From the NCBI GenBank assembly GCA_033398695.1, contig CM065801.1, positions 104,091,170 to 104,155,169 on the forward strand: a DNA stretch of 64,000 bases, given 5' to 3'. Source of the stretch: Orobanche coerulescens. Its lineage: Eukaryota; Streptophyta; Magnoliopsida; Lamiales; Orobanchaceae. Below, one piece after another: positions 28,560 to 64,000 of the stretch (within the stretch, counting starts at the first letter, position 1; every line of letters starts with the position of its first letter). The position numbers and the translations under genes are program-made. The notes under the pieces were generated by a model that was not told the origin of the DNA, did not search any database, and saw nothing but the letters and a program-made list of their open reading frames with translations.

Positions 28560-28565
28560 AGTTTT

Positions 28566-35586: not shown

Positions 35587-35591
35587 TATAG

Positions 35592-37553: not shown

Positions 37554-39152
37554 CATACCAAGAATTCTTGGAGCGCGCTAGCTCCCACATTTCGGCTGAG
37601 GAAGCTATGCCGGACCGAGTCCTAGTCATGTCCACCGATCCAAAAGGATCTTATAAGAAAGAACACAAGCATGACCTCAAAGAGGCCCGTTGGGAGAACA
37701 AGGCCACTGCCTCCTCTTCGACCACCCCGATAACCCGAAATTACAGGGAGCAAAGGCCCGAGCTCATGGCCAGCTTCGCCGAGATATATTTTGTAGGGAC
37801 TGCGGCCATATTTGAGCAGATAAAGAACAAGAATTTGCTCCCGGTCCCTCGTCCAATTTACAAGGACCAGAAAGACATGGACCAGACCCACTTATGCAAA
37901 TAACATGAAACAGCGGGTCACAACACCGAGCAGTGCCGAGACCTTGCCTTGATTGAAGTCTGCGACGATACCGGGTTGAGGCGATTTACCCAGAATCCAC
38001 CCAGGGATCACCAGGATCGGGCCGACCAGGCAAAATCAAAAAACAATTGGTGCTTCCAACCCCTAAATCTCCCCGGGAAATCCTTACGGTCATGGGGACG
38101 GCCGAAGTCAAGGACCATCGGTCTAAGTGGCAGAAGAAAGCCAATATTCGAGAGGCCACTACATCCTATCAGCGGAGTGAGCGCCGACCCAAAGGATTTC
38201 TGTCAGTGGCCGAAGAAACCCCCAGAAACCCCCAGCTGGCCGTCACTTTCGAGGAATCAGATGCTGATGGTTTGGATCATCCCCACTCCGATGCCCTCGT
38301 CATCACCCTGCCCATAATGGAAATCTTTGTACACAGGGTATTTGTGGATTTAGGGGCCTATGCCAGCATCATCTACCTTCATACCCTTCGCAGGATGAAA
38401 GTGGATCAATCCTATGTCCGGCCCTACCAGGAGGACATCAGAGGGTTTGCCAACTACCGCGCCACACCGTTTGGAGAAATCAACCTTGCCCTGGAGTTCG
38501 GTCAGGGGCCAATCAATAGAACGATGATCACCACATTTAAGACCATCGACGTGCACAGTGACTATAATGCCATCATAGGCCGACATGTTATGTCAAGGCT
38601 GAGGGCCACTCAATCCACTTATTATATGTGCATGAAATTCCCCACCCCAGACAACATCGGGGTACATAGGGGAGATCAACATGCCGCCCGAAAATGCAAA
38701 CTTAGCATCCGGGCTCGTGAAATAAATGCCGCAGAGGGCACACCGGGAAGTATGTCGGAAGAAATGGGAGCAATCGGAACCGAACAACTGGGATAAGGTG
38801 CCCGGCTTGAACAAGACGCCAGTGGTTCTGGGGCCGCTCAAGCCCTAGAAATAGAAATTAACTAGGACGTAGACCGAGGCCGTAGGCTAGGAAAAGAGCC
38901 GATCCTGGAGGAAGATCCCGTCGACCCACGATTCCAGAAACTGAAGAGAAAGATTCGCCACGCTGAGCCGACAGAAGAACTGGATCAAGTCGACATGGAC
39001 ATATCTAATCCCGTCCGATAGGTTAGGATCGGCCACAACCTCTAAGAACCGATCCGTTCCGAGCTAATCTCCCACCTGAGACAAAATTTGTATGTCTTCG
39101 CGTGGACCTATTCAGACATGTCTGGGATTGACCCGGAATTTGCGTGCCACCA
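37554..39152 (+). pseudogene. T gag end, protease and start of RT (decayed)
   Basis: Frame 2 from 37556 reads YQEFLERASSHISAEEAM, a stop at 37901, then GHNTEQCRDLALIEV (half of a zinc knuckle). Frame 1 from about 38050 has the Tat protease: DALVITLPIMEIFVHRVFVD, LGAYASIIYLHTLRRM (DLGA at the DxG site), YNAIIGRHVMSRLRATQSTYY. After stops, LRQNLYVFAWTYSDMSGIDPEFACHH is the very start of Tat RT; homology ends there. Probably the same element as 5039-7526, split by A2, though the joint does not restore a clean frame. Confidence 0.75.
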
Positions 39153-39544: not shown

Positions 39545-40663
39545 TGTCACGGGGTTGGGTTTGAGCACTCGAAAGATCTTCGGACCCGTGCGGCACTAGA
39601 CTGGAATTGCCTCGATCTAGCTAGTAAGCCTTAACTCACTCGGTTGCTAAGTATGAAAGAAGGGGTTTACACTTGGGAGTTGAGAGAAAACTTCACTATT
39701 TCACAAACACTTACAAGTACACAAGAATGTTGAGTCTTTGAGGGTTGGGTTGCAAATGAGCCACTCCTTATCTATTTATACTACTCCTAAGAACCTAGAA
39801 CCTTATACTCCACCTCCTCATTTGGAGGGTTCTAGACCTATCTACATCATACCAATTCTAGAACCTATCTCTAGAATCATCCACACAAGTCTACATACAC
39901 AAGGCTTACAAACACATTCTAGAGTATTCTACCAAGTACAATCTAGAATGCTCCACAATTTTCAAGTACTATATCCTTCTAGGAGGGTCCTAGAAGATTC
40001 TTCCATCCACCGGGCGCCCCGGCCCGTCTCTGTCCGTCCCGACCCACATTGGCCCGTCCCGGACCGCACCGGCCCGTCTCGGCCCAACCATCTGGGCCCG
40101 TCTCTACAATGCTCCATACTCTTCCCGAACCTCCAGGACCAAGCCGGTCCGCTTCTAGCTGCTTCCGGTCGAGTCTTCCCTGCTGAGTGACTCCTCAGCT
40201 TTTCAATGTCTACTGCCCCCACAAGGCTTTTTCCGTCTAAGCCTATTATAGGGGGGGAGGGTCTCCCTCACACCTCGCGCGTGCGCGCCCGCGCACGCCG
40301 GCCGCGGCCGGCATCCCACGCCCGCGTCCGGCCACCCAGCTCGAGTCTTGTTCCCCGACTCGGCCTTGTCCCGTCGTGCCTTGTCCCACACGACTGCTGC
40401 TCGTCCGGCCTTGCTCAAGGCCAGATCACGGACACCCCGAACATGTCCAGTCCGAAATGCCCCTTGGGCGATCCGCTTCCCACAGCTGCGTCCGTGCTCC
40501 CACGGCTTACTCGCGTGATTCTCTGTCCGATCACGCCGTCCTGAAGGCTGACTCTTCACTTGCAGCCCGATGCCATCCTTGGCGTCCTGCTCATGCCGGT
40601 CCCTCGGCACCGTGCGGCGACCGCTTCACGCACACTGTCTCGCTGCCGATCGTCGCCGTGACA
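39545..40663 (-). repeat. F LTR 1 (3'-most)
   Basis: 1119 bp, TGTCACGGGG to CGCCGTGACA; TGTCAC and GTGACA are inverted terminal repeats. A complementary TATA (AGTATAAATAG on the minus strand) lies near 39773. The GC-rich part at about 40010-40110 is built of GGCCCGTC/CCGGCCCG repeats. Confidence 0.93.
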
Positions 40664-42543
40664 TTCTCCCCCGCCCATTTCATCGACGTGCTCGGCGACG
40701 TGGCGGCCCCTCTATGAACCGAACTGCTCCAAGGTGGTAACTCGGCTCCTCCACAAGCTTCCTCACGTACTTGAGTGCCGACATAGCTTGTCTCGAAGGC
40801 TATGTGGTCAAGTGTATTTCCTGTAGCTTGGCTTGATCACACACGTACAACGCCCTCTTATGCGGAACAACGCCAACATTATTCTTCCTCAGGAAGTCCA
40901 TGCCCAGTATAATGTCCCGATCATCCATGCTCGTCACCTTGAAGTGCACGCGCGGTTCCCATGTGCCAATCTTTAGTCGCACCCCATTGGCGACCCCTAT
41001 AACCCGAACGGGTGGTGCATTATTCGACTTCATCCAGACCCGTCCCTCGATGACCTGCAGCCCCAACCTCTGTGCTTCAGCCTCGTCAATGTAGTTGTAA
41101 TCGGCCCCTGTGTCGACCAACGCCTTGATGGGTTTCCCATTGATCAGCCCCGTCGCATACATCAAGTTTCCCTCAAGCGGTGCTCCGTCCCGCGATGCCA
41201 TCCCTATGGCTGAGTTCAACACCTGAAGCGTCAACGATGTCCCATCACCCTCGGCATTGTCCCGTGCCTTGGTGTACTCGATGGTGGCTACCCTCGGAAA
41301 CTTCGAGCATTGCCTCGTCGAATGCTCCGTGCTCCAGCAAATCTCACATTTCTTTTTCTTCGGGCACGCTGCTACGAGATGGTCTGCACTCCCGCACCCA
41401 TGGCAAGTCCGAGCCCATCCTGACTGCTTGCCGTCCTTGGGCCTGGCCATCCTCGCGCCCCTATCCACATTACCCTGGTACGACTTGTCCTGCGTACCGA
41501 TGCCGTCCTCGTCCCTCCTGGACTTCCGTCTCTCCCCGGCTGGTTTCAACTCGATCAGCCGTTCCACTATCGCAATTGCCTCGGACACGTTCTGTGCCTT
41601 GGCCCTCTGCACTTCCAACTTTGCCCACGATTTTAGCCCATCTATGAATGCGAACAAAGCTTCCTGCTCACTAAGGCTAGGCAACTCCAGCACGATCTCC
41701 TGGAACTCCTTCACATAGTCCTTGATCGTCTTGTCAAGGCCAACTCCTTCAACCTAGCCCAGACCTCAAACTCAACATTCTCCGGGTAAAACTGCCGCTT
41801 GAATTCGGCCTTGAAATCCTCCCATGTCTCCATCCGACATGTACCACGCGCGATCTCTGTTTCGCGCCTTCTCCACCATAGCAGCGCCACATCTGCTAAG
41901 AAGAATGGAGCCGTCTGCAACTTGGTCGCATCATCTGCTATCCCCGATGCACCAAAGTAACGCTCCATGTTCCACAGGAAGTCGTCCACTTACCTACCAT
42001 TCCGCGATCCTTGGAACGAACATGGTCGGGGGATGTCGATTCGATGGGGTGTCGCACCCCGCTGGTCCCTGCCGTGGGCCATCGCCCGCTCGTACAGTGC
42101 TCTCCTTCCTTCGATGGTCTCGATCCTCCCTATGATCTCCTCTCGAAAGGCCGCGATCATCGACCGAACCTCCTTCCTGACAGCTTCAAGGATCTCTTCA
42201 CACAACTCACGTCGCAACGCGTTAAGGGTGCCCGTCACCCGATTCTCAAGCTCCTCCAATGACTCGCTCATCTCCGTCACCTGATCGGCCACATTGCTCC
42301 ATACCTCAAGAGCATCTGCGTGCTTGCCCATGGTTTCCTCCAGCCGAGCCACTCGGGCTTCCATGGCAATACCTCTTTCCACGGACTTGTCCCTAGACCC
42401 TTTCCTAGACTTGTCCTTCTCCTAGCCGGGTTGAACTTTGGTGACGCTAGACATAGTCTCCATCGGTCCTCCTTGCACAAAACCTCTCAGCAATGTCTCA
42501 CTGCGGAAGCTCCTTGAACCACTAGCGTGGCTCCGATACCACT
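40664..42543 (-). pseudogene. F unit 1: gag-protease (broken)
   Basis: The start ATG is at 42463. Stops at codon 14 (42422-42424) and at 41990, and a frameshift at about 41735. The readable parts are a coiled-coil-like N-terminus (VARLEETMGKHADALEV to IETIEGRR), Gag core (FLWNMERYFGASGIADD), two CCHC knuckles (CHGCGSADHLVAAC and CEICWSTEHSTRQC) and a protease (ALVDTGADYNYIDEAEAQRL, DRDIILGMDFLRKNN). The open frame 41714-40800 holds the last three. The complement of GATACCA near 42534 is the primer site; the polypurine tract is at 40664-40680. Confidence 0.88.
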
Positions 42544-43666
42544 TGTAACGGGGTTGGGTTTGAGCACTCAAAAGCTCTTCCGACCCGTGCGGCACTAGAC
42601 TAGAATTACCTCGATCTAGATAGTAAGCCTTAACTCACTCGGTTGCTAAGTATGAAAGAAGGGGTTTACACTTGGGAGTTGAGAGAAAACTTCACTATTT
42701 CACAAACACTTACAAGTACACAAGAATGTTGAGTCTTTGAGGGTTGGGTTGCAAATGAGCCACTCCTCATCTATTTATACTACTCCTAAGAACCTAGAAC
42801 CTTCTACTCCACCTCCTCATTTGGAGGGTTCTAGAACTATCTACATCATACCAATTCTAGAACCTATCTCTAGAATCATCCACACAAGTCTACATACACA
42901 AGGCTTACAAACACATTCTAGAGTATTCTACTAAGTACAATCTAGAATGCTCCACAATCTTCAAGTACTACATCCTTCTAGGAGGGTCCTAGAAGGTTCT
43001 TCCATCATCCGGGCGCCCCGGACCGTCTCTGTCCGTCCCGGCCCGCATTGGCCTGTCCCGGCCCGCACCGGCCCGTCTCGGCTTGACCATCTGGGCCCGT
43101 CTCTACAATGTTCCGGACTCTTCCCGAACCTCCTGGACCAAGCCGGTCCGCTTCTAGCTGCTTCCGGTCGAGTCTTCCCTGCTGAGTGACTCCTCAGCTT
43201 TTCAATGTCTACTGCCCCCACAAGGCTTTTTCCGTCTAAGCCTATTATGGGGGGGAGGGTCTCCCTCGCACCTCGCACGCACGCGCCCGCGCACGCCGGC
43301 CGCGCCCGGCATCCCACGCCCGCATCCGGCCGCCCAGCTCGAGTCTTGTTCCCCGACTCGGCCTTGTCCCGTCGTGCCTTGTCCCACACGACTACTGCTC
43401 GTCCGGCCTTGCCCGCACACCCTGCGCTGCCGGACAGTCCCGAACATGTCCAGTCCAGAATGCCCCTTGGGCGATCCGCTTCCCACAGCGGCGTCCGTGC
43501 TCCCACGGCTTACTCGCGTGATTCTCCATCCGATCACGCCGTCCTGAAGGCTGACTCTTCACTTGCAGCCCGATGCCATCCTTGGCGTCCTGCTCGTGCC
43601 GGTCCCTCGGCACCCCGTGCGACCGTCTGTGCACACCTGTCTCGTCGTAGACTGTCGGCCGTGACA
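42544..43666 (-). repeat. F LTR 2
   Basis: 1123 bp; begins TGTAACGGGG (TGTCACGGGG in LTRs 1 and 4) and ends GCCGTGACA. The minus-strand TATA is near 42770. Confidence 0.93.
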
Positions 43667-45547
43667 TTCTCCCCCGCCCATTTCATCGACGTCCTCGGCG
43701 ACGTGGCGGCCCCTCGATGAACCGAACTGCTCCAAGGTGGTAACTCGGCTCCTCCACAAGCTTCCTCACGTACTTGAGTGCCGACATAGCATGTCTCGAA
43801 GGCTCTGTGGTCAAGTGTATTTCCTGTAGCTTGGCTTGATCACACACGTACAACGCCCTCTTATGCGGAACAACGCCAACATTATTCTTCCTCAGGAAGT
43901 CCATGCCCAGTATAATGTCCCGATCATCCATGCTCGTCACCTTGAAGTGCACGCGTGGTTCCCATGTGCCAATCTTTAGTCGCACCCCATTGGCGACCCC
44001 TATAACCCGAACGGGTGGTGCATTATTCGACTTCATCCAGCCCCGTCCCTCGATGACCTGAAGCCCCAACCTCTGTGCTTCAGCCTCGTCAATGTAGTTG
44101 TAATCGGCCCCTGTGTCGACCAACGCCTTAATGGGTTTCCCATTGATCAGCCCCGTCGCATACATCAAGTTTCCCTCAAGCGGTGCTCCGTCCCGCGATG
44201 CCATCCCTATGGCTGAGTTCAACACCTGAAGCGTCAACGATGTCCCATCACCCTCGGCATTGTCCCGTGACTTGGTGTACTCAATGGTGGCTACCCTCGG
44301 AAACTTCGAGCATTGCCTCGTCGAATGCTCCGTGCTCCAGCAAATCTCACATTTCTTTTTCTTCGGGCACGCTGCTACGAGATGGTCTGCACTCCCGCAC
44401 CCATGGTAAGTCCGAGCCCATCCTGACTGCTTGCCGTCCTTGGGCCTGGCCATCCTCGCGCCCCTATCCACATTACCCTGGTACGACTTGTCCTGCGTAC
44501 CGATGCCGTCCTCGTCCCTCCTGGACTTCCGTCTCTCCCCGGCTGGTTTCAACTCGATCAGCCGTTCCACTATCGCAATCGCCTCGGACACGTTCTATGC
44601 CTTGGCCCTCTGCACTTCCAACTTTGCCCACGGTTTTAGCCCATCTACGAATGCGAACAAAGCTTCCTGCTCACTAAGGCTAGGCAACTCCAGCACGATC
44701 TCCTGGAACTCCTTCACATAGTCCTTGATCGTCTTGCTGTGCGTCAACTCCTTCAACCTAGCCCGGACCTCAAACTCAACATTCTCCGAGTAAAACTGCC
44801 GCTTGAATTCGGCCTTGAAATCCTCCCATGTCTCCATCCGACATGTACCACGTGCGATCTCTGTTTCGCGCCTTCTCCACCATAGCAACGCCACATCTGC
44901 TAAGAAGAATGGAGCCGTCTGCAACTTGGTCGCATCATCTGCTATCCCCGATGCACCAAAGTAACGCTCCATGTTCCACAGGAAGTCGTCCACTTCCCTA
45001 CCATTCCGCGATCCTTGGAACGAACACGGTCGGGGGATGTCGATTCGATGGGGTGTCGCACCCCGCTGGTCCCTGCCGTGGGCCATCGCCCGCTCGTACA
45101 ATGATCTCCTTCCTTCGATGGTCTCGATCCTCCCTATGATCTCCTCTCGAAAGGCCGCGATCATCGACCGAACCTCCTTCCTGACAGCTTCAAGGATCTC
45201 TTCACACAACTCACGTCGCAACGCGTTAAGGGTGCCCGTCACCCGATTCTCAAGCTCCTCCAATGACTCGCTCATCTCCGTCACCTGATCGGCCACATTG
45301 CTCCATACCTCAAGAGCATCTGCGTGCTTGCCCATGGTTTCCTCCAGCCGAGCCACTCGGGCTTCCATGGCAACACCTCTTTCCACGGACTTGTCCCTAG
45401 ACCCTTTCCTAGACTTGTCCTTCTCCTAGCCGGGTTGAACTTTGGTGACGCTAGACATAGTCTCCATCGGTCCTCCTTGCACAACACTTCTCAGCAATGT
45501 CTCACTGCGGAAGCTCCTTGAACCACTAGCGTGGCTCCGATACAACT
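43667..45547 (-). pseudogene. F unit 2: gag-protease, best preserved copy
   Basis: One frame from ATG 45467 to 43683 with only two stops, at 45426-45428 (codon 14) and 44592-44594 (after LEVQRAKA). The 263-residue part (45386-44595) is coiled-coil plus Gag core (WWRRRETEIARGTCRMETWEDF, ARLKELTHSKTIKDYVKEF); the 302-residue part (44591-43683) has both knuckles and the DTGA protease, ending KYVRKLVEEPSYHLGAV and an Arg-rich tail. No RT, RNase H or integrase follows before the polypurine tract at 43667. It would depend on another element for reverse transcription and integration. Confidence 0.9.
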
Positions 45548-46671
45548 TGTAACGGGGTTGGGTTTGAGCACTCAAAAGCTCTTCGGACCCGTGCGGCACT
45601 AGACTAAAATTACCTCGATCTAGATAGTAAGCCTTAACTCACTCGGTTGCTAAGTATGAAAGAAGGGGTTTACACTTGGGAGTTGAGAGAAAACTTCACT
45701 ATTTCACAAACACTTACAAGTACACAAGAATGTTGAGTCTTTGAGGGTTGGGTTGCAAATGAGCCACTCCTCATCTATTTATACTACTCCTAAGAACCTA
45801 GAACCGTGTACTCCACCTCCTCATTTGGAGGGTTCTAGAACTATCTACATCATACCAATTCTAGAACCTATCTCTAGAATCATCCACACAAGTCTACATA
45901 CACAAGGCTTACAAACACATTCTAGAGTATTCTACTAAGTACAATCTAGAATGCTCCACAATCTTCAAGTACTACATCCTTCTAGGAGGGTCCTAGAAGG
46001 TTCTTCCATCATCCGGGCGCCCCGGACCGTCTCTGTCCGTCCCGGCCCGCATTGGCCCGTCCCGGCCCGCACCGGCCCGTCTCGGCCCGACCATCTGTGC
46101 CCGTCTCTACAATGTTCCAGACTCTTCCCGAACCTCCTGGACCAAGCCGGTCCGCTTCTAGCTGCTTCCGGTCGAGTCTTCCCTGCTGAGTGACTCCTCA
46201 GCTTTTCAATGTCTACTGCCCCCACAAGGCTTTTTCCGTCTAAGCCTATTATAGGGGGGGAGGGTCTCCCTCGCACCTCGCACGCACGCGCCCGCGCACG
46301 CCGGCCGCGCCCGGCATCCCACGCCCGCGTCCGGCCGCCCAGCTCGAGTCTTGTTCCCCGACTCGGCCTTGTCCCGTCGTGCCTTGTCCCACACGACTAC
46401 TGCTCGTCCGGCCTTGCCCGCACACCCTGCGCTGCCGGACAGTCCCGAATATGTCCAGTCCAGAATGCCCCTTGGGCGATCCGCTTCCCACAGCGGCGTC
46501 CGTGCTCCCACGGCTTACTCGCGTGATTCTCCATCCGATCACGCCGTCCTGAAGGCTGACTCTTCACTTGCAGCCCGATGCCATCCTTGGCGTCCTGCTC
46601 GTGCCGGTCCCTCGGCACCCCGTGCGATCGTCTGTGCACACCTGTCTCGTCGTCGACTGTCGGCCATGACA
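45548..46671 (-). repeat. F LTR 3
   Basis: 1124 bp, TGTAACGGGG to GGCCATGACA. Confidence 0.93.
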
Positions 46672-48550
46672 TTCTCCCCCGCCCATTTCATCGACGTCCT
46701 CGGCGACGTGGCAGCCCCTCGATGAACCAAACTGCTCCAAGGTGGTAACTCGGCTCCTCCACAAGCTTCCTCACGTACTTGAGTGCCGTTATAGCTTGTC
46801 TCGAAGGCTCTGTGGTCAAGTGTATTTCCTGTAGCTTGGCTTGATCACTCACGTACAACGCCCTCTTATGCGGAACAACGCCAACATTATTCTTCCTCAG
46901 GAAGTCCATGCCCAGTATAATGTCCCGATCATCCATGCTCGTCACATTGAAGTGCACGCGCGGTTCCCACGTGCCAATCTTTAGTCGCACCCCATTGGCG
47001 ACCCCTATAACCCGAACGGGTGGTGCATTATTCGACTTCATCCAGCCCCGTCCCTCGATGACCTGAAGCCCCAACCTCTGTGCTTCAGCCTCGTCAATGT
47101 AGTTGTAATCGGCCCCTGTGTCGACCAACGCCTTGACGGATTTCCCATTGATCAGCCCCGTCGCATACATCAAGTTTCCCTCAAGCGGTGCTCCGTCCCG
47201 CGATGCCATCCCTATGGCTGAGTTCAACACTTGAAGCGCCAACGATGTCCCATCACCCTTGGCATTGTCCCGTGCCTTGGTGTACTCCATGGTGGCTACC
47301 CTCGGAAACTTCGAGCATTGCCTCGTCGAATGCTCCGTGCTCTAGAAAATCTCACATTTCTTTTTCTTCGGGCACGCTGCTATGAGATGGTCTGCACTCC
47401 CGCACCTATGGCAAGTCCGAGCCCATCCTGACTGCTTGCCGTCCTTGGGCCTGGCCATCCTCGCGCCCCTATCCACATTACCCTGGTACGACTTGTCCTG
47501 CGTACCGATGCCGTCCTCGTCCCTCCTGGACTTCCGTCTCTCCCCGGCTGGTTTCAACTCGATCAGCCGTTCCACTATCGCAATCGCCTCGGACACGTTC
47601 TGTGCCTTGGCCCTCTGCACTTCCAACTTTGCCCACGGTTTTAGCCCATCTACGAACGCGAACAAAGCTTCCTGCTCACTAAGGCTAGGCAACTCCAGCA
47701 CGATCTCCTGGAACTCCTTCACATAGTCCTTGATCGTCTTGTCAAGGCCAACTCCTTCAACCTAGCCCGGACCTCAAACTCAACATTCTCCGGGTAAAAC
47801 TGCCGCTTGAATTCGGCCTTGAAATCCTCCCATGTCTCCATCCGACATGTACCACGCGCGATCTCTGTTTTGCGCCTTCTCCACCATAGCAGCGCCACAT
47901 CTGCTAAGAAGAATGGAGCCGTCTGCAACTTGGTCGCATCATCTGCTATCCCGGATGCACCAAAGTAACGCTCCATGTTCCACAGGAAGTCGTCCACTTC
48001 CCTACCATTCCGCGATCCTTGGAACGAACACAGTCGGGGGATGTAGATTCGATGGGGTGTCGCACCCCGCTGGTCCCTGCCGTGGGCCATCGCCCGCTCG
48101 TACAGTGCTTTCCTTCCTTCGATGGTCTTTATCCTCCCTATGATCTCCTCTCGAAAGGCCGCGATCATTGACCGAACCTCCTTCCTGCAGCTTCAAGGAT
48201 CTCTTCACACAACTCAAGTCGCAACGCATTAAGGGTGCCCGTCACCCGATTCTCAAGCTCCTCCAATGACTCGCTCATCTCCGTCACCTGATCGGCCACA
48301 TTGCTCCATACCTCAAGAGCATCTGCGTGCTTGCCCATGGTTTCCTCCAGCCGAGTCACTCGGGCTTCCATGGCAACACCTCTTTCCACGGACTTGTCCC
48401 TAGACCCTTTCCTGGACTTGTCCTTCTCCTGGCCGGGTTGAACTTTGGTGACGCTAGACGTAGTCTCCATCGGTCCTCCTTGCACAAAACCTCTCAACAA
48501 CGTCTCAATGCGGAAGCTCCTTGAACCACTAGCGTGGCTCCGATACCACT
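46672..48550 (-). pseudogene. F unit 3: gag-protease (broken)
   Basis: The start ATG 48470 (METTSSVTKVQPGQEKDK) has Gln where units 1 and 2 have a stop at codon 14. A 1-base loss near 48188 shifts the frame, a second shift near 47740 is shared with unit 1, and a stop near 47341 falls in the second knuckle (CEIF then stop, where the others have CEICW). The protease part 47290-46688 is open and has ALVDTGADYNYID. Confidence 0.88.
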
Positions 48551-49674
48551 TGTCACGGGGTTGGGTTTGAGCACTCAAAAGCTCTTCGGACCCGTGCGGC
48601 ACTAGACTAGAATTGCCTCGATCTTGCTAGTAAGCCTTAACTCACTCGGTTGCTAAGTATGAAAGAAGGGGTTTACACTTGGGAATTGAGAGAAAACTTC
48701 ACTATTTCACAAACACTTACAAGTACACAAGAATGTTGAGTCTTTGAGGGTTGGGTTGCAAATGAGCCACTCCTCATCTATTTATACTACTCCTAAGAAC
48801 CTAGAACCTTCTACTCCACCTCTTCATTTGGAGGGTTCTAGACCTATCTACATCATACCAATTCTAGAACCTATCTCTAGAATCATCCACACAAGTCTAC
48901 ATACACAAGGCTTACAAACACATTCTAGAGTATTCTACTAAGTACAATCTAGAATGCTCCACAATCTTCAAGTACTACAACCTTCTAGGAGGGTCCTAGA
49001 AGGTTCTTCCATCATCCGGGCGCCCCGGCCCGTCTCTGTCCGTCCCGGCCCGCATTGGCCCGTCCCGGACCGCACCGGCCCATCTCGGCCCGACCATCTG
49101 GGCCCGTCTCTACAATGTTCCAGACTCTTCCCGAACCTCCTGGACCAAGTCGGTCCGCTTCTAGCTGCTTCCGGTCGAGTCTTTCCTGCTGAGTGACTCC
49201 TCAGCTTTTCAATGTCTACTGCCCCCACAAGGCTTTTTCCGTCTAAGCCTATTATAGGGGGGGAGGGTCTCCCTCGCACCTCGCACGCGTGCGCCCGTGC
49301 ACGCCGGCCGTGCCCGGCATCCCACGCCCGCGTCCGGCCGCCCAACTCGAGTCTTGTTCCCCGACTCGGCCTTGTTTCGTCGTGCCTTGTCCCACACGAC
49401 TGCTGCTCGTCCGGCCTTGCCCGCAACCCCTGCGCTGCCAGACAGTCCCGAACATGTCCAGTCCGGAATGCCCCTTGGGCGATCCGCTTCCCACAACGGC
49501 GTCCGTGCTCCCACGGCTTACTCGCGTGATTCTCCGTGCGATCACGCCGTCCTGAAGGCTGACTCTTCACTTGCAGCCCAATGCCATCCTTGGCATCCTG
49601 CTCGTGCCGGTCCCTCAGCACCCCGTGCGACCGTCTGCGCACACCTATCTCGTCGTCGACTGTTGGCCGTGACA
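48551..49674 (-). repeat. F LTR 4 (5'-most)
   Basis: 1124 bp, TGTCACGGGG to GGCCGTGACA, followed by CTAAGTAGAC of the host LTR E. Confidence 0.93.
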
Positions 49675-51056: not shown

Positions 51057-51680
51057 TGTTGAACTAATATAGTTTTGATGATGATTTCAAAAACACTTAG
51101 TATAATATAACGCACGATATATCATTTATTAGCGCACGTTAAATACCTTGAACAGAGGACTGGAAAGAATGTTGATGGCAAGATTAACGCACGCAACTGC
51201 TATGATTAACGCACGCTACCGATAATACGAGCGCACATTATAGTTTCATGTAACACACGCTAACAGACCAGGACAGTAAGCTCAACATTATCATCAGGAA
51301 ATGACTAACGCACGGTAATGTGTCCATAGGGCATGTTAAAGCCTCATGATAGTGGGTTCTGGAATTCACGTATGAAAGAAGGAAACACACACTAAAGATG
51401 AAACAACGTACGCTAAGTGAAGCTATTAACGGACACCAAGTATAAAGCTAACACACGCTATTAAGTTACTACAGAGTAGTCCAAAAAGCAAAACTGAAAA
51501 CAGTAATGCCTACATGCAGGAATAATGCACATTATTGAGCATCTCCAGAGAAGTCCAGAAAACAAGTCTGAAGACATTAACGCACGCTATGGTGAAGGTT
51601 AACGTGCGCTACGTTCAAAATATGAACATTAACCTCTATGAACGTTGGAATTATGACCGTTCACTATAAGAATAAACATC
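51057..51680 (+). repeat. LTR fragment G1 with decayed palindrome array
   Basis: Starts TGTTGAACTAATATAG with TTTTGATGATGATTTC, like the opening of some copia LTRs and like G2 at 63041. Palindrome units such as TAACGCACGCTA occur throughout, for example starting at 51185, 51207, 51229 and 51251 (22 bp period), many with one or two changes. The right end passes into CACTA-like sequence at about 51681. Confidence 0.6.
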
Positions 51681-53120: not shown

Positions 53121-53278
53121 TGTAATAACCGGATTTATTACTGTGTATTTCATCTGTACTTTGAACCTGTAGTATTTTGGGAATGATGATATTGATAATG
53201 GAGTATGATCATTATCGTATTTGTATCCTTATTCATGGGTGTGGCAACATATAAATTTTCCTCCATGCATATACGTGA

Positions 53279-53628
53279 TAACGTACGTTAAGAGTGTAAC
53301 TTAACGTACGTAATCTGTTAATGTTAACGTACGCTACGGATGAAGCGTAGCGTACGTAATGCGGTCAATTATTGGATGGGCCAGCTAGCACATGGAGTAC
53401 ATGGTGGTGGGCTCGACCAAGATACCCACCAGATTCGCACGGCATGAATCTGGACACCTTTTTAAGTCAACGGCTTAACGTACGTTATGAACATTATGTA
53501 GCGTACGCAAACTATATGGGTTACGTACGTAACGCGTTTAGTATAGCGTACGTAATGAAGTTCAGAAATCAGACAGTGAACTATTTTGGGCGATAACGTA
53601 CGTTATGAAGTAGCCCTAGCGTACGTAA
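53279..53628. repeat. H upstream palindrome quartets and TATA-proximal pair
   Basis: Units start at 53279, 53302, 53325, 53348 (exactly 23 bp apart), then 53476, 53499, 53521, 53544, then a pair at 53594 and 53617. Most are TAACGTACGTTA, TTACGTACGTAA or TAGCGTACGTAA. TATAAAA follows 12 bp after the pair. Confidence 0.93.
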
Positions 53629-53640
53629 CACTCAGAAAGT

Positions 53641-53647
53641 TATAAAA
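53641..53647 (+). promoter_or_regulatory. TATA box of H 5' LTR
   Basis: TATAAAA directly after the palindrome pair; repeated in the 3' LTR at 61015-61021. Confidence 0.75.
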
Positions 53648-54480
53648 GGAGCAGCACCCCAATTCATTTGAACTCGTCCTTTTGCTCCTAAACTTCATCA
53701 TATTCGTCCCTAGAAGATTTCCAGCCTCTTTTAACACCTTTATATCAATTGTTACTGAATCATTGAGCTTGTATGACACTACTTGATCATTGAAGACAAC
53801 TTATATTGGACTTTGGAGTAGAAATCATCGCGAGTCGGCGTTGAAGCAACCGGAGTTGGATTTTACTTAGAGTCTCAGTATTATCTTCCTCTTAAGGTAT
53901 GTTATACTACTTCCAATCTTGAAGTTATGTTGATTAAAGATGATATGATCGCATTACCAAGAACAGTAGATCACTTTGACGACATATGCGACCTAGTATC
54001 ATATTTAAACTATAATGATCGAACTATTATGGTGTAGAACACCGTAGTTGAACCTGGTTATGCCATAGATGAGGGTAGTGAATTATTAACCGTATCAAAT
54101 GTTATCGTCATGTTGATTGTAAACTGAGTGTCAATTTCCACTTTTATCAATGGATTTTGGAAAGAATCATCATAGTTGTAATCTTGCTTGCATAGATGAA
54201 TAAGTAGTTCGCCATCTGTATAAGCCTGGATTTAATGACGATATTAGATCAATTACATCAACCTTAGACCAACCGAACCTTGTATGAGTATTTCGATCAA
54301 GATTGAAAATAGTATTACGATGATATCCGTATCCTTGAAATTGAAGATATTAATCCGAAGATCATTCATGAGTATGATATATATATTTGAAGGTATACTA
54401 GATTACTCACTAAGAATTTCGTAATACTTCGTCACTAATCGAGCCAGTCATCCGTCCAGTGAGAAACTGACATGCATGAT

Positions 54481-54685
54481 TAACGTACGTTAAGTTTGGT
54501 TACTAACGTACGTTATATGACGTTGTTAACGTACGCTACGTTCGGTACGTAACGCACGTTACACTATCAGACGACTGATCAGAGAGGAACTGTTGGTATA
54601 TGTTTAGCGTACGCTATACTTCATAGTTTACGTACGCTAACGAATAAGTTTAACGTACGTTACAGAGGACATGTAACGTACGTTA
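54481..54685. repeat. H downstream palindrome quartets
   Basis: Starts at 54481, 54504, 54527, 54550 and at 54605, 54628, 54651, 54674; every interval within a quartet is exactly 23 bp. Each unit is 12 bp and spacers are 11 bp of unrelated sequence. Confidence 0.93.
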
Positions 54686-55581
54686 TTCAAGTCAGACAGT
54701 TTCGTTTTATAGACTCTCAACCGTAATTCGGATTGTTAGATGTTCGTTCGACCTAAGGTGAATTCCATGTTATTTCTCTTATTTAAGGTTCGAACTTTGC
54801 TACGTGATTGATCGGGAGGGGCAACCTTCGAGCGTTTCGTTCTCGTGGAAGTATTATTCTTGTCTTCGAACCGAGGCAAGTATTCTAATTAGAAATGTTT
54901 ATATTATGACAATGTGATTGTATCATGTAAATATGTAGTGATTATATGTCCACCATGTGTTGATCCGACGGGAATCATCATGGGAATCTATAGCTGTGTG
55001 CGATGGATCGTTGGACAGGTAGTTCCACCATGTGTTGGTCCGACGGGATCATCATGGGAATCTATAGCTGTGTGCGCTGGATCGTTGGAATACCATCAGT
55101 ATGTTGAAACTGTTATGATATGATATGTGTTGTGGATATTCTCGTTGGAGAAACTTGTATGATATAATTGTTGATTATATCACTGTTGTATGATTATTGT
55201 ACTTGTACTAGCATCGTTGTGCTAACCCCTTCGGGGGTGAACATTTTGTTTGTTCAGATCCAGAGAGCGGGAAACAACCACCGGAAATGCATGACGAGGG
55301 TGCAAAGTGATGTTCGCCGGTTTATCGTCTGCTATTTGTTGGATATTTCAATAAGTACTCGAGTACGTCGTCCGTTTATAATGTTGGGATTTTAATGATG
55401 TAATAAATTTTCATTGGATATTTGTATTTCGATTTTTGAACCAGACGGTTGTATTTTACTTCAGTAATTTCATAAAGCGGTACCTGTTATTGTCTTTTCT
55501 TTTGATCAGCCTTGTAAATCCTTATGTAAAGGATTTACGGCGCTGTAATATTCCTGAATACTTCGGGGGTGTTACAGAATA

Positions 55582-55597
55582 TGGTATCGGAGCTAAG
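55582..55597 (+). promoter_or_regulatory. primer binding site of H
   Basis: TGGTATCGGAGCTAAG, five bases after the LTR, initiator tRNA-Met type with one change (CGG for CAG). Confidence 0.85.
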
Positions 55598-55812
55598 ATT
55601 ATGGATATCTTGGCCGTTGGGTTAAAGTAGGGGTCATTTATGTCTTTTGAGGTAACCGGCCGTGAATGACATCACCGCACTGCCTACGTCTTCATGCGAA
55701 CGGTGGTTGTAAGTTCCTAAAACTCTATCTCATTCTTTACATGTTATGTCTCTTTATACTTGAACATTAGAACAATGTTGTTTCCTGTATATTAAGTACT
55801 TGTACTTACATT

Positions 55813-57051
55813 ATGTTGAGAGGCGGACGTGGACGTGGTCGCGGTCGTGGACGCGGATGGAGGAATGCTGAAAGGGAGGCGTCGCCTTCTAATCAGGCTA
55901 GTCATAGCTCAGGCGAGCCGCAGCAATCCATCAATAACGAACCGGAACCTGGTGTACCAGAAATCCTTCGTCAAGTCGTGAACTGAGATGACTCGGTTCG
56001 CATGTGTCGTGGACCGAATGCAAGTGGCGGCAGGAATTCGCAGGAGATGGACAACAAAGGATTCAGAAATGGGAAATCGAGGTGACCGATGGTTACAAGA
56101 GGTGGCAAAGATGCAACCACCCAAATTTGACGGCTTTTCCGAGACTCCCACTTGGGACCATTGGTTGAAGGAACTGGAGAAAATTTTCTTTGGAATTAAT
56201 TGCCCAAATGACAGGAGAGCTCCTATTGCCCAGTACTTTCTGACAGGAGAAGCGTCCGAGTGGTGGGAAGCTATCCGACCCGTAGATCATGATGCCGATT
56301 GGGCGGAATTTAAAATGATGATGGAGGCTCAGTATTGCACTCGTCCTGTGAGGGAAGCCAAAATTCGAGAATTTTTCTGCTCGGCCATCGATGAACCCGT
56401 ATCCTGCATTTATCAAGACGTATAACCAGCAATTAGCATTTGTTCGACATCTGGTCAGAACAGATGCAGAGATGATGATTCATTTTGAAATGAGAATGAA
56501 ACCAGAAATCCAGAGGTACATGTCCGGTTTTGAATGTACCACTCTCCGCCAATACCAGGATAAGGCGTTGGCGTATGAAATTAAAGAAGCAGCAATGGAG
56601 AAGTTTATGGAGTCGAAGAAACAGAAAGTCTCTGGTACTTTTAAAGAGCACAAAAGCAGTGGGCCCCGCAAGGCCCAAACTTCTTTTTCTTTCAAGAAAC
56701 CTCCGCACCCATCCAAGAATCGAAAGAATTACGGATCAGTGTCAGCCACGACGGATACAGCTAGGAAGTGTTTTAATTGTGGTCGCCCAGGCCACCTTTG
56801 GCGCGATTGTTTGCGCACCCCAGTTACATGCTTTGACTGCGGACAGGAAGGGCACCGTGCGACGTTCTGCAAGGACGCCACCAAATACAAAGGAACCCGT
56901 TCGTCACAGCCAGTTCAGAAGGAAGGTAGTATTCAACAGACGCAACAAAGTGTTCACATGCCTCAAAATTTTGGCCGTGGACGAGGCAGAGGACAATGGG
57001 ACCAAAAGGGGACATCGAGTGCCGGATCTGTTCCCCCACGCCTGTATGAGA
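55813..57051 (+). pseudogene. H gag (frameshifted)
   Basis: ATG 55813 gives MLRGGRGRGRGRGRGRGWRN; the frame stops at 55984 because CAG of B reads TGAG here, an insertion. Frame 2 then carries the Gag core (MQPPKFDGFSETPTWDHWLKEL, GEASEWWEAI) to about 56380, a second shift enters frame 3 (FIKTYNQQLAFVRHLVRTDAE), and two intact CCHC knuckles follow (CFNCGRPGHLWRDC and CFDCGQEGHRATFC). From here frame 3 continues straight into protease. Confidence 0.88.
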
Positions 57052-60000
57052 TGAGACGGACAGACGACCAGGATGCTGCTGTCGCATCAGGTACTGTCCA
57101 GATTCTTTCCCAACCAGTTAGCGTTTTATTCGATACAGGAGCTACGCATTCTTTTATCTCTTTGTCTTGTGTAAATCGTTTGAATATTTCTGGTTTTCAT
57201 ACTTGTGAACCTTATGTTGTTGGTTTACCGAGTGGAGAGAGGATTGTTGGGAACTTAGAGACTAGAGATTTTCCTGTATAATTTGGGGGTAAGAAATGGC
57301 TCTCAAACCTAATTGTGATAGAAATGCAAGGAGATGACCTAATACTCGGAGACGATTGGCTTAATCGATATGGAGCAATTGTGAATTACCGAAGGAGGAA
57401 TATTTCGCTAATCGCTGATGATGGCTCCGAAGTACTGTTTGAAGGATGGAAACCAGGAAGCTCAGGAAAGTTGATCAAAGCAATGAAAGCTGTCAAATTG
57501 TTGAAACAGGGCTGTATCGGGTACTGGTGTTATGCAATGAAGAAAGAAGATGAAATTGTGGAACTTCCATCCATTCCTATTGTGAACGAATTTCCAGATG
57601 TATTTCCTGACGAGTTGCCTGGACTACCTCCACGATGGGAAGTAGAATTCACGATTGAGCTAGAACCCGGAGCTACACCAATTTCTAAGGCACCGTATCG
57701 CATGGCACCTACGGAGATGTACGAACTGAAGAAACAACTCGAAGAATTACTGGACAAAGGCTATATTCAGCCAAGCGTTTCACCCTGGGGAGCACCAGTT
57801 CTTTTTGTTCGAAAGAAGGATGGATCGCTTCGACTGTGTATTGATTACCGAGAGCTGAACAAGATGACGATTAAGAACAAGTATCCGTTGCCACGAATTG
57901 ATGATCTGTTTGACTAGTTGCAAGGAGCAACAGTGTTTTCAAAAATCGATCTAAGATCAGGATACCATCAGCTGAGGATTAAGGAATCTGATGTTCCAAA
58001 GTCAGCATTTAGAACTCGCTACGGACATTATGAGTTTATAGTGATGCCATTTGGACTCACTAATGCGCCTGCTGTATTCATGCAGTTGATGAACCGAGTG
58101 TTCATTGAATATTTGGATAAATTTGTGGTCGTGTTCATTGATGATATTCTGGTATATTCTAAGAATCCGGAAGAACATGCGCAACATTTGCGGATTGTAT
58201 TGGAACTTTTGAGAAGCGAGCAATTGTACGCCAAACTTTCCAAGTGTGAATTCTGGCTAAAAGAAGTAATGTTCCTCGGCCATGTGGTGTCAGCTGAAGG
58301 AGTCCGAGTAGATCCTCAGAAGATCGAAGCAATTATGGATTGGAAGCCTCCAAAGAATGTAAAAGAAGTCCGAAGTTTCTTAGGACTCGCTGGGTATTAT
58401 CGTCGGTTCGTGGAAGGGTTTTCCAAAATTTCCCGCCCACTTACTCGACTCCTTCAGAAAACTCAAAAGTTTGAATGGAATGAGTTGTGTCAGATTAGCT
58501 TTGATGAATTGAAGAAGAGACTGACGACGGCACCGATTCTATCACTTCCGCAGGGAACTGGAGGATTTATAGTTTACAGTGATGCTTCGAACCAAGGACT
58601 TGGGTGCGTATTGATGCAGAATGATAAGGTGATCGCTTATGCGTCGCGACAGCTGAAACCTTATGAAGTAAATTACCCAACACATGATTTGGAGCTAGCA
58701 GCAGTGGTTTTTGCTTTGAAGATCTGGAGACATTATCTGTACGGGACTCAGTGTCAGATCTTTACGGATCATAAGAGTCTCAAGTACATATTCAGTCAGA
58801 AGGAGTTGAACATGCGACAAAGAAGATGGTTAGAGCTGATCAAGGACTATGACTTGGAGATTTTATATCATCCAGGCAAAGCGAATGTAGTGGCCGATGC
58901 ACTTAGCCGCAAGCCTGTATCTATTCAGATGCTGGAGACACTGACCTCCCAACTTAGCCTTCAACGAGAGAGGATTCGTGTAGGAATCGAAGTGTGGTTA
59001 CAAAGAGTCCAAGGACAACTGTGCGTGATGGAGATAACTTCATCATTAACCGAAGAAATCAAATCCAGACAGGCGGATGATCCTCTAATGATTCGGGTAC
59101 GTGATGAAGTAATCAAGGGAAAGGCCCCCGGATTCCTAATTCATGATGATGGAATTTTGAAATTTCAGAACCGACTCTGCGTTCCTGATATCGATATTCT
59201 GAAACAAACGATTATGAAGGAAGCTCACAGTTCACCCTATTCTATCCACCTGTGCACCATAAAATGTATAAGGACTTGAAGCAAAATTTCCGGTGGGGCA
59301 ACATGAAGAAAGATGTAGCGGACTATGTTTCAAATGCTTGACTTGTCGTGAGTTAAGATCGAGCATCAACGGCTGCCGGAATGTTGAAGCCACTCCCGAT
59401 TCCTGAATGGAAGTGGGAGGACATATCGATGGACTTTATCACTAATATGCCGAGAACCAGGACAGGAATGAACATGATTTGGGTGATAGTTGATCGTTTA
59501 ACCAAATCAGCTCATTTTCTAGGCATTAAGGATACATGGGGACCAGAGAAGTTGGCACGAGTATTTATTTCAGAGATAGTTCGATTACATGGTACGCCAA
59601 AGACCATTGTTTCTGATCGAGACGGCCGTTTTGTGTCTCACTTTTGGAAAGCGATTCATAAGGCCTTGGGGACCGAATTGAACTTGATCTGACTTATCAC
59701 CCGAGGTGACGGACAATCCGAAAGAACTATACAAACGGTGGAAGACATGCTAAGGGCTGCGCCTTAGATTGGTCAATCGATTGGGAAATTCATCTACCGT
59801 TGATTGAATTTAACTACAACAATAGTTGGCATGCTAACATTAAGATGGCACCGTTTGAGGCATTATACGGTAGGAGATGCAGATCGCCCCTATCTTTGGG
59901 GACGATTCATCGGACTTGATCGAGCAGAACGAGTTGATCGTACAGACTCGAGAGAAGATAGCCTTGATTCGTGAAAGGCTGTTGACCGCCCAGAGTCGCC

Positions 60001-60467
60001 AGAAATCTTACGCAGACGTACGTCGTCGCCCTTTGGAGTTCAGTATTGGAGACCACGTACTTTTAAAGGTTTCACCTACTCGGGGGATATTCCGTTTCGG
60101 AAGGAAAGGAAAGCTAAGTCCGAGATATATCGGACCATTTGAGATCCTTGAGAGAGTTGGAGAGTTGGCATATAGATTAGCATTGCCACCGTCATTGTGC
60201 CATGTACATAACGTGTTCCACGTATCCCAATTACGGAGGTATATACCAGATCCCAGTCATATCATTGATTTCGGCGATATCGAAGTCGCGCAGGATGGGA
60301 CGTTTGAAGAAAGACCGGTCAAGATACTCGAGAGTCGAGTTAAGCAGTTGAGAAACAAACCCATCTTTTTAGTCAAAGTTCAATGGTCACGCCATGGAGT
60401 GGAAGAAGCCACATGGGAAACGGAAGGTGGCATGAAGTCCAGATATCCCGAGTTATTTTCGTCTTGA
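57052..60467 (+). pseudogene. H pol polyprotein (two stops, integrase frameshifts)
   Basis: Frame 3: protease LFDTGATHSF (Asp codon 57132), stop TAA at 57279-57281, RT start, stop TAG at 57915-57917, then 453 open residues (57918-59279) with RT ([16 protein letters not shown] at 58134-58145), RNase H ([27 protein letters not shown]) and the start of integrase HHCC. A cluster of small indels between 59250 and 59930 breaks the integrase core (SMDFIT and DRDGRF remain at 59381-59692); the C-terminal part and chromodomain-like tail (59877-60467) are open. RT and RNase H show all catalytic motifs. Confidence 0.92.
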
Positions 60468-60502
60468 GTTTCGGGACGAAACTCGTTTTTAGTAGGAGAG
60501 TA

Positions 60503-62953
60503 TGTAATAACCGGATTTATTACTATGTATTTCATCTGTACTTTGAACCCTGTAGTATTTTGGGAATGATGATATTGATAATGGAGTATGATCATTATCG
60601 TATTTGTATCCTTATTCATGGGTGTGGCAACATATAAATTTTCCTCCATGCATATACGTGATAACGTACGTTAAGAGTGTAACTTAACGTACGTAATCTG
60701 TTAATGTTAACGTACGCTACGGATGAAGCGTGGCGTTTAAATGCGGTCAATTATTGGATGGGCCGGCTAGCACATGGAGTACATGGTGGTGGGCTCGACC
60801 AAGATACCCACCGGTCGCACGGCATGAATCGACACCTTTAAGTCAACGGCTTAACGTGCGTTATGAACATTGTGTAGCGTCGCAAACTATATGGGTTACG
60901 ACGTAACGCGTTTAGTATAGCGTCGTAATGAAGTTCGAGAAATCGATAAGTGAACTATTTTGGGCGATAACGTACGTTATGAAGTAGCCCTAGCGTACGT
61001 AACACTCAGAAAGTTATAAAAGGAGCAGCACCCCAATTCATTTCAACTCGTCCTTTTGCTCCTAAACTTCATCATATTCGTCCCCAGAAGATTTCCAGCC
61101 TCTTTTAACACCTTTATATCAATTGTTACTGAATCATTGATCTTGTATGACACTACTTGATCATTGAAGACAACTTATATTGGACTTTGGAGTAGAAATC
61201 ATCGCGAGTCGGCGTTGAAGCAACCGGAGTTGGATTTTACTTAGAGTCCCAGTATTATCTTCCTCTTAAGGTATGTTATACTACTTCCAATCTTGAAGTT
61301 ATGTTGATTAAAGATGATATGATCGCATTACCAAGAACAGTAGATCACTTTGACGACATATGCGACCTAGTATCATATTTAAACTATAATGATCGAACTA
61401 TTATGGTGTAGCAGACCGTAGTTGAACCTGGTTATGCCATAGATGAGGGTAGTGAATTATTAACCGTATCAAATGTTATCGTCATGTTGATTGTAAACTG
61501 AGTGTCAATTTCCACTTTTATCAATGGATTTTGGAAAGAATCATCATAGTTGTAATCTTGCTTGCATAGATGAATAAGTAGTTCGCCATCGGTATAAGCC
61601 TGGATTTAATGACGATATTAGATCAATTACATCAACCTTAGACCAACCGAACCTTGTATGAGTATTTCGATCAAGATTGAAAATAGTATTACGATGATAT
61701 CCGTATCCTTGAAATTGAAGATATTAATCCGAAGATCATTCATGAGTATGATATATATATTTGAAGGTATACTAGATTACTCACTAAGAATTTCGTAATA
61801 CTTCGTCACTAATCGAGCCAGTCATCCGTCCAGTGAGAAACTGACATGCATGATTAACGTACGTTAAGTTGGGTTACTAACGTACGTTATATGACGTTGT
61901 TAACGTACGCTACGCTGATGCACGTAACGCACGCGTTACACTATCGAACGATCGAGAAGGAACTGTTGGTATATGTTTTGCGTACGCTATACTTCATAGT
62001 TTACGTACGCTAACGAATAAGTTTAACGTACGTTACAGAGGACATGTAACGTACGTTATTCAAGTCAGACAGTTTCGTTTTATAGACTCTCAACCGTAAT
62101 TCGGATTGTTAGATGTTCGTTCGACCATAGGTGAATTCCATGTTATTTCTCTTATTTAAGGTTCGAACTTTGCTACGTGATTGATCGGGAGGGGAAACCT
62201 TCGAGCGTTTCGTTCTTGTGGAAGTATTATTCTTGTCTTCGAACCGAGGCAAGTATTCTAATTAGAAATGTTTATATTATGACAATGTGATTGTATCATG
62301 TAAATATGTAGTGATTATATGTCCACCATGTGTTGATCCGACGGGAATCATCATGGGAATCTATAGCCGTGTGTCTTGGATCGTTGGATGTAGTTCCACC
62401 ATGTGTTGGTCCGCGGGATCATCATGGGAATCTATATTTGTGTCTTATTTGGATCGTTGGAATACCATCGGTATGTTGAAAGCTGTTATGATATGATATG
62501 TGTTGTGGATATTCTCGTTGGAGAAACTTGTATGATATAATTGTTGATTATATCACCGTTGTATGATTATTGTACTTGTACTAGCATCGTTGTGCTAACC
62601 CCTTCGGGGTGAACATTTTGTTTGTTCAGGATCCGGGAGAGCGGGAAACAACCACCGGAAATGCATGACGAGGGTGCAAAGTGATGTTCCGGCCGGGTTT
62701 ACTGTCTGTTATTTGTTGGATATTTCAATAAGTACTCGAGTACGTCGTCCGTTTATAATGTTGGGATTTTAATGATGTAATAAATTTTCATTGGATATTT
62801 GTATTTCGATTTTTGAACCAGACGGTTGTATTTTACTTCAGTAATTTCATAAAGCGGTACCTGTTATTGTCTTTTCTTTTAATCAGCCTTGTAAATCCTT
62901 ATGTAAAGGATTTACGGCGCTGTAATATTCCTGAATACATCGGGGGTGTTACA
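60503..62953 (+). repeat. H 3' LTR
   Basis: 2451 bp. Same landmarks as the 5' LTR: palindromes from 60663 and 61856, TATAAAA 61015, stem-loop 62891-62915. Several palindromes have lost two bases (CGTACG to CGTCG or CGACG near 60880, 60900 and 60920). Confidence 0.94.
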
Positions 62954-63040: not shown

Positions 63041-64000
63041 TGTTGACTCAAAAGTATTTTGATGATAATTTCAAAACATTTAATAAAATCAATCTAAGCA
63101 CGTTGTTATATTGAAGGAGCAAAACAGACTTAGCGCACGCTACTTATAACAGAGTAGCGCACGCTATCGAGGAATATATATACAGCCTAGTCAGTTAGCT
63201 GCAGTCCAGTGAAGTTACCTGATGAATAGCGCACGCAAGATCTTCAACATTTGCGCATGCTAAATTACTATATTTAGCACACGCTAATCAACAATATTAA
63301 CGCACGCTATCGCATCTCCAGTCAGAGGACAGTAAGGTCTGGAAACAAAAAGGCAAAGGACTTGTGCACGCTACGGACAATTATTTACGTACGCTAAAAC
63401 AAGGACTTAGCGCACGTTATTCTTCATTACTTGCGCACGCTACCGGATATCATGGTCAGTAGTCCAGTAGCTACTGGACTCACAATGAAAAGTGCTTTAC
63501 GTATGCTACACAGGGTAACGTACGTTACAGAAGAAAACATTTAGCGCACGCTACGATATATACATTAGCGCACGCTAAATCAGTCAACAGCCTACCATTG
63601 GATTTTCTACCGTTGGAAAAGCAGGAGTCAATGAAGATCCGTGAAATCTGGAAAAGCTAGAATTAATTAATACTAGCGCACAATATGCATGATTGCTAGC
63701 GCACGCTAAGTTCAAATTTAGCCGTTGGACAAAGAGACGTTGGGGAGACAAACGAATAATTTCAAGGTCAAAATTGAAGACATGTTGACCAACCGATAAC
63801 GCACGCTACGAGTACATGACGAGCGCACGCTAGCTATATTATTTTACCATTGGAACAGTTTTGTGACCGTTTAGAAATGTCAAGTCAGAGACGATTGCGC
63901 ACGCTAGAAGGCATTATTAGCGCACGCTAATAATACGATTTTCAGTATTTGAAGAATGGCTTTCACCTATAAATACCCATAGGACTTAGGTATCATTCAC
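63041..64000 (+). repeat. LTR G2 with palindrome array, runs off window
   Basis: Starts TGTTGACTCAAAAGTATTTTGATG, resembling G1 and some copia LTRs. Palindrome units start at 63131/63155; 63227, 63251, 63275, 63298; 63362, 63385, 63408, 63431; 63497, 63516, 63542, 63566; 63674/63697; 63797/63821; and 63895/63918. TATAAATA at 63968-63975 follows the last pair. No internal region is visible. Confidence 0.65.
63968..63975 (+). promoter_or_regulatory. TATA box of G2
   Basis: TATAAATA, 39 bp after the last palindrome; position relative to the palindrome pair is like that in H and B. Confidence 0.65.

Follow-up and report, generated by a model that had tools for sequence, protein, structure and literature searches.

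The long terminal repeats (LTRs) of several retrotransposon families of Orobanche coerulescens carry dense arrays of a 12-bp near-dyad site with CG in its core, repeated at a nearly fixed step of 22-24 bp and grouped mostly in twos and fours. We lean towards the view, drawn from the DNA sequence, that these arrays are promoter-proximal cis-regulatory operators (in two of the elements, H and B, also located downstream) for a host DNA-binding protein that would occupy them as pairs of dimers. In the window (i.e. the whole 64-kb stretch of DNA analysed), exact matches to the site consensus TWRCGYRCGYWA number 103, compared with 0.15 ± 0.39 in 100 dinucleotide shuffles (largest count, two). Of these, 84 lie in LTRs, those of the three elements H, B and A, and the other 19 form two more arrays, termed C and D. 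It should be noted that all the site statistics come from this one window, and that the arrays of H and B are not independent of each other.

Element H (53121-62953, plus strand) is flanked on both sides by the target-site duplication GGCAT. Its 5' LTR (H5, 53121-55576), with the ends TGTAATAACCGG...GGGGGTGTTACA, contains 18 exact sites and is followed by the primer-binding-site-like sequence TGGTATCGGAGC, while its 3' LTR (H3, 60503-62953; 96.7% identical to H5) contains 13. Element B (18198-35586, plus strand, target-site duplication TATAG) has eight exact sites in its 5' LTR (B5, 18198-20573; sites at 18353-18578 and 19434-19649) and 12 in its 3' LTR (B3), which is interrupted by a nested element at about 26726-34410 and has six sites in each of its two parts (25519-26725 and 34411-35586). 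Element A (7914-13310, minus strand, target-site duplication GTGAC) consists of two 2.4-kb LTRs around 647 bp; this short-interior element still has 15-18 sites per LTR, namely 18 in the 3' LTR (A3, 7914-10297) and 15 in the 5' LTR (A5, 10945-13310). Paired LTRs, TG...CA ends and a target-site duplication, the criteria for an LTR retrotransposon, were found in each of H, B and A. Array C (51108-51611) is decayed, with five exact sites and pairs at 22 bp, and array D (63131-63929), with 14 exact sites, runs towards the end of the window.

The reading frames of B matched gag, protease, RT, RNase H, Integrase_H2C2 and SH3_Tf2-1, and a Chromo match (E 2.1e-5) scored 24.8 bits, just below the cut-off of 25.1. 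Those of H matched gag, protease, RT, RNase H and SH3_Tf2-1, and no match to Integrase_H2C2 or Chromo was found in its broken frames. The domain content of both elements is that of Ty3/gypsy, and they may be of the Tekay lineage of chromoviruses, a name suggested by the long LTRs and by the methionine-tRNA-like primer site. When the integrase frame of B was compared with known proteins, the organism-named matches among the best 120 of 7981 were plants, and the top identity among all 120 was 67%. All six frames of at least 100 aa in the interior of B are gag, protease, RT, RNase H or integrase; five of the ten in H match such domains, and the other five, without a Pfam match, overlap or adjoin gag-pol. 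No frame of at least 100 aa lies beyond the gag-pol span in either element. Since the frames of this length in B are all gag-pol, and half of those in H match such domains, the element product that an earlier note on this DNA had proposed as one possible binder is unlikely, apart from Gag or Pol themselves.

No exact site was found in the nested element within B (about 26726-34410), nor in a 3-kb tandem block at 39.5-49.7 kb. The latter (39545-49674) consists of a 3-kb unit repeated head to tail about 3.4 times, with 93-97% identity between copies, and contains a retropepsin-like minus-strand frame at 43683-44594. Exact sites were also absent from the LTR pieces (within 1-1.7 kb and 35.6-37.6 kb) attributed to E, an older Ty3/gypsy element whose pol is about 70% like that of H in DNA. 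Several CCGCGG-type palindromes can be seen by eye in these pieces (about 1-1674 and 35587-37560), and no further array was established there by such reading.

The pattern is clearest in H5, from which the earlier note had described 18 sites, about one sixth of the 103 in the window. All 18 12-mers were found where they had been reported, with the intervals then given. Upstream of the TATA-like box of this LTR (TATAAAA, 53641-53647, plus strand, assigned by sequence) lie a first quartet (53279-53359; steps 23, 23 and 23 bp), a second (53476-53555; 23, 22 and 23 bp) and a pair (53594-53628; 23 bp), whose end stands, as claimed, 12 bp before the box. Two more quartets with all steps equal to 23 bp (54481-54561 and 54605-54685) lie about 840-1030 bp downstream of the box, the first of them starting 840 bp from it, and both have counterparts in B. 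The part of the H LTR downstream of the TATA-like box also contains a 74-bp tandem repeat (54949-55089; 1.9 copies, 95% match).

The spacers between the sites had been called unrelated, and this was borne out: their mean identity was 0.272 over 119 pairs from the same LTR, compared with 0.270 for random 11-mers from the same sequences. Since the spacers are as unlike each other as random LTR sequence while the site and the step are kept, the sequence between the sites is not conserved, and a recent tandem duplication with similar spacers, which the note had named as a refutation, was rejected. Nor is the pattern peculiar to H, because regular spacing recurs in other LTRs within the 64-kb window, so that the note's other refuting condition, a lack of excess 23-bp spacing in further LTR copies, also fails there. 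The description of the units was less accurate. The sequence given for most of them, TAACGTACGTTA, is that of only seven of the 18 sites of H5, and the palindrome is perfect in nine of these 18 sites, but in only 15 of 67 over the non-redundant set defined below. The argument that a 23-bp step places all dyads on the same side of the helix does not hold, because at 10.5 bp per turn 23 bp corresponds to 2.19 turns, so that successive dyads are about 69 degrees off per step; a step of 21 bp would keep them on the same face. The proposal of cooperative sites for a dimeric protein thus loses its same-face argument, while spacing, unrelated spacers, recurrence and promoter-proximal position still favour sites for a multimer. 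The view of the single palindromic site as the unit is incomplete, since two sites together seem to make up the unit, the palindrome is imperfect in most sites outside H, and two of the four quartets of H are downstream of the TATA-like box.

For counts over the whole window, a non-redundant set with one copy per family was used (H5, B3, A3 and arrays C and D; 67 of the 103 exact sites), the mates H3, B5 and A5 (36 sites) being excluded. In this set, 39 of the 46 steps of at most 60 bp between neighbouring sites measured 22-24 bp, and 26 exactly 23 bp; in 20,000 runs of random placement within the same spans, such steps numbered 3.1 and 1.0 on average and never exceeded 12 and 6, respectively. 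When one mismatch was allowed, the preferred step differed with cluster size: 24 bp in isolated pairs (7 of 13, with three each at 23 and 22 bp) and 23 bp in clusters of at least four (28 of 35 steps). Information content was 1.0-2.0 bits per column inside the 12 bp, and at most 0.25 outside. The two central bases, counted in element sense for H, B and A and on the plus strand for C and D, were CA in 33 sites, TG in four, CG in two and TA in 28. A symmetric dimer does not explain this strand bias towards CA centres in the mostly asymmetric sites outside H, which counts against it. A scan of prokaryotes for two TARCGYRCGYTA at a step of 23 bp gave no hit; a scan of viral contigs returned a lone pair on one contig, within G+C-rich DNA, and this was judged unrelated.

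The sites are also grouped in even numbers. When sites with up to one mismatch were linked by steps of 22-24 bp, there were eight single sites, 13 pairs, ten clusters of four and one of six, and no cluster of three or five. Odd clusters above one were therefore absent, against 7.1 expected when the links were shuffled within each array set (P 0.0002). Five other definitions gave P values between 0.027 and less than 0.0001: clusters of three numbered one or two when only exact sites were counted (P 0.004 and 0.027), whereas with two mismatches there were three clusters of three under the 22-24 bp rule (P 0.016) and none under a gap rule (P 0.0001). These values overstate the case, because the test was conceived after the data had been viewed and because three quartets are common to H and B by descent. 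Even sizes are thus observed as a pairing rule that depends on how a cluster is defined, and that is softer with exact sites and with two mismatches.

In four of the five families, the array ends shortly before a TATA-like box, the gap from the last upstream site being 12 bp in H, 22 bp in B, 11 bp in A (before TATAAAA) and 38 bp in D (before TATAAATA); in the piece containing array C, no TATA-like box was listed. Both H and B have a second array downstream of the box, followed in both by the sequence TTTTATA, 19 bp (H) or 20 bp (B) past its last site. Judging from this motif, the downstream array may mark an additional start site or be an internal enhancer; that it belongs to a second promoter is a guess. 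When the sites were masked, only H and B aligned substantially among H5, B5, A3 and arrays C and D; C and D had one 55-bp match in common, and the A LTR aligned with none of the other four at E 1e-3. The site and its step of 22-24 bp are nonetheless present in all these LTRs and arrays.

Comparison of H with B, whose LTRs are 67% identical over 2285 aligned columns, shows how the sites change. Twelve sites of H have positional counterparts in B, and among these, columns 1, 4, 5, 9 and 12 were identical in 60 of 60 comparisons, and column 8 in 10 of 12. Columns 3, 6, 7 and 10, in contrast, agreed in only 25 of 48, which is below the agreement in the six spacers of equal length (41 of 66). Substitutions within counterpart sites comprised 25 transitions and three transversions, a bias that is partly due to the counterparts having been chosen in part by their fit to the consensus. 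Three of nine counterpart spacers differ in length by one base, and both flanking sites are kept. At the four purine/pyrimidine columns, likeness was 0.76 between sites of H, 0.56 between sites of B, 0.52 between H-B counterparts and 0.49 between non-counterparts, and the mean number of G or C among the four columns was 0.61 in H, compared with 1.8-2.5 in the others (permutation P 0.0002). The CG core is therefore kept between H and B while the purine/pyrimidine positions vary by family, as a kind of dialect. We read these differences as a concerted change of spelling, as expected if one factor reads all the sites of an element.

Differences between LTR mates were treated with more caution. 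In H (53121-55576 vs. 60503-62953) and A (7914-10297 vs. 10945-13310) they are patchy. Insertions or deletions make up 18 of the 45 groups of differences in H and 17 of 29 in A, compared with 4 of 65 in B, and the differences of H and A include single-base losses within sites. CAG/CTG differences are directional (16 to 4 in H, 12 to 1 in A), and they are so in B also (3 to 12). H5 and H3 differ at 95 columns; B3 matches H5 at 47 of these and H3 at 23, and is unlike both at the remaining 25. We suspect that the differences in H3 and A5 are base-calling errors, possibly at methylated sites, rather than evolution, and for this reason the losses of sites in these two LTRs were not taken as evolutionary events.

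The operator reading accounts for homotypic clusters of 12-bp near-dyad sites, paired at 22-24 bp and stopping shortly before a core promoter, in the following way. A sequence-specific host protein would bind the sites as dimers, one per site, and two such dimers spaced by about 23 bp would form one unit, either a tetramer or a cooperative pair. Several such units together would switch on the LTR promoter wherever the factor is present, and element families following variants of the factor would acquire their own dialects at the purine/pyrimidine positions. Packing limited by the footprint of the protein, or a tetramer spanning two sites, would suit the 23-bp step better than same-face phasing. 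Several observations count against this reading: the strand bias at the site centres, the decay of CpGs in the site copies of B, the place of two of the four H quartets far downstream of the TATA-like box, and a complementarity of partner sites that by some measures is a little above expectation, as a hairpin would also have it. More tentatively, we suggest as a possibility a single paired-dyad code (12-bp sites, a step of 22-24 bp, groups of two, four and six) common to several retrotransposon families of one plant, including a near-interiorless element, and rewritten in concert in each family; the common activator (or anti-silencer) would then be a host multimeric DNA-binding protein that the elements exploit and track.

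With 11 bases between them, two such near-palindromes also form an inverted repeat, and the arrays could act as RNA, i.e. as stem-loops in U3 and R-U5 that the element uses for packaging or stability, or that the host cuts into small RNAs, a fate proposed for the palindromes of Sireviruses. We consider this rather unlikely, even though it accounts for several of the data. Even cluster sizes are what hairpins need; the four H quartets fold with z = -6.0, -2.5, -1.7 and -5.6, and all except the second fold as two adjacent hairpins. The 36 partner pairs exceed permutation both in complementarity between sites at the variable positions (P 0.003) and in contiguous extension into the spacer (P 0.005), which the 12 links between pairs do not (P 0.62 and 0.36, respectively), and folding becomes weaker when the second site of a partner pair is swapped (P 0.010), an effect not seen for the links between pairs (P 0.58). 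In addition, a small-RNA excess over palindrome clusters is mentioned for maize Sireviruses in the available portion of PMC10760457, citing Bousios et al. (2016). Other measures, however, do not point the same way: P was 0.095 for complementarity of the spacer ends over three positions, 0.47 for the inner half of the sites and 0.19 for folding under spacer swaps. Non-palindromic neighbours have the same orientation in 12 cases and opposite orientation in three, which places mismatches in the stem, and when whole clusters of four were folded, pairing of site 1 with 2 and of 3 with 4 was the main pairing in only six of ten. Arrays D and C keep the array grammar, yet their partner pairs fold weakly (means of -8.5 and -4.5 kcal/mol, compared with -14 to -16 kcal/mol in H, B and A). 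Furthermore, near-palindromes are expected to fold without selection, and a twofold-symmetric pair of dimers would yield the same small complementarity.

A CG-bearing array might alternatively be the target of a protein that demethylates or methylates DNA, in the way that VANC acts on the motif arrays of VANDAL transposons; this (anti-)silencing function seems to us unlikely. As far as the consulted portion of PMC5735166 describes them, VANC targets are dense, short, non-coding motif arrays whose family variants change together, much like those found here. Each exact site by definition has two CpGs, which are kept between H and B counterparts, and site CpGs show no decay between the mates of H (0 of 38, vs. 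10 of 90 outside sites) or A (0 of 38 vs. 12 of 100). Those, however, are the mates that look error-prone, while in B the site CpGs decay like the others (5 of 33 vs. 15 of 79), and B and H have no extra gene of known kind among frames of at least 100 aa. Signals for the element's own integrase, Gag or chromodomain, serving for example targeting or packaging, would suit the relatedness of the H and B pol genes, and also the short-interior element A, which retains its sites and would need them in cis. The Ty3/gypsy element E, however, has no exact site in its assignable LTR pieces, and we regard such signals as very improbable. Still less credible is a neutral origin, in which a 23-bp unit was multiplied by tandem duplication or replication slippage: the unit length is fixed and the sites within H are alike, but the spacers are random-like where site and step are kept, three of the nine H-B spacers have shifted by one base in length between preserved sites, and the same grammar occurs in LTRs that do not align.

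The closest known parallel is provided by the RM palindromes of Sireviruses, which are Ty1/copia elements. According to the sections of Bousios et al. (2010; PMC2829016) that were consulted, 8-32 short palindromes with CG in the core are present per element, clustered in the LTR, where they define CpG islands followed by a TATA box on average 37 bp further on. As described there, their cores are near-identical despite low overall homology and have the form CGG-CCG (Tnd-1 excepted), in nine elements they are also found upstream of the envelope gene, and a regulatory role was only proposed. The present arrays resemble them in clustering upstream of an LTR TATA box, the gap being 11-38 bp in H, B, A and D; in H and B, an additional cluster lies downstream of the box. 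They differ in their carriers, which by the domains of H and B are Ty3/gypsy and not Ty1/copia, and in their core (RCGYRCGY); moreover, neither a constant step nor an even-number rule is reported for RM in the same sections. Assignment to the Sirevirus palindromes thus fails on element type and core, while the likeness in arrangement is strong.

The likeness to VANC arrays is of another kind. In the available sections of PMC5735166 and PMC10398659, VANDAL DNA transposons are described as carrying dense, short, non-coding motifs, with C-type and T-type variants that differ by subfamily and evolve together. The VANC21 motif, YAGTATTAY, is given there as lacking CpG, having one orientation, lying often in tandem repeats and being bound by a family-encoded protein. 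Dense, family-specific motif arrays are therefore common to both systems, whereas the VANC binder is encoded by the element family and the exact sites described here contain CpGs. When six of the 12-mers were looked up in the literature, seven papers were listed, and no title among them concerned a plant or a retrotransposon.

The EBNA1 site clusters of Epstein-Barr virus are likewise palindromic dimer sites in groups. One 12-mer of the window lies within the EBNA1-site region at promoter Qp, as given in the consulted part of PMC2921154. We see no relation between the two systems and take the common 12-mer as a coincidence; EBNA1 clusters are an analogue in architecture only.

By titles and the beginnings of abstracts, no report of such arrays in Gypsy LTRs was found among the matches listed in the literature searches, in which subscription papers are thinly covered; nor was one present in the available sections of PMC6911290, PMC12844716, PMC11656987 and PMC5311732. 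On this background, the arrays are best read as a Gypsy counterpart of the Sirevirus palindromes, with another core and strict spacing. Palindrome arrays in the LTR promoters of Copia Sireviruses are already known; what is new is the even cluster sizes, the arrays that stop 11-38 bp short of a TATA-like box in four families, and the CG core kept with a family dialect.

If Gypsy elements have such arrays independently and in a stricter form, this would suggest a general way for retrotransposons to keep their grip on host factors. The near-fixed step, the even sizes and the dialects make the binder directly searchable, with the 35-bp pair as a bait, and the dialects predict which elements one variant of the factor should activate.
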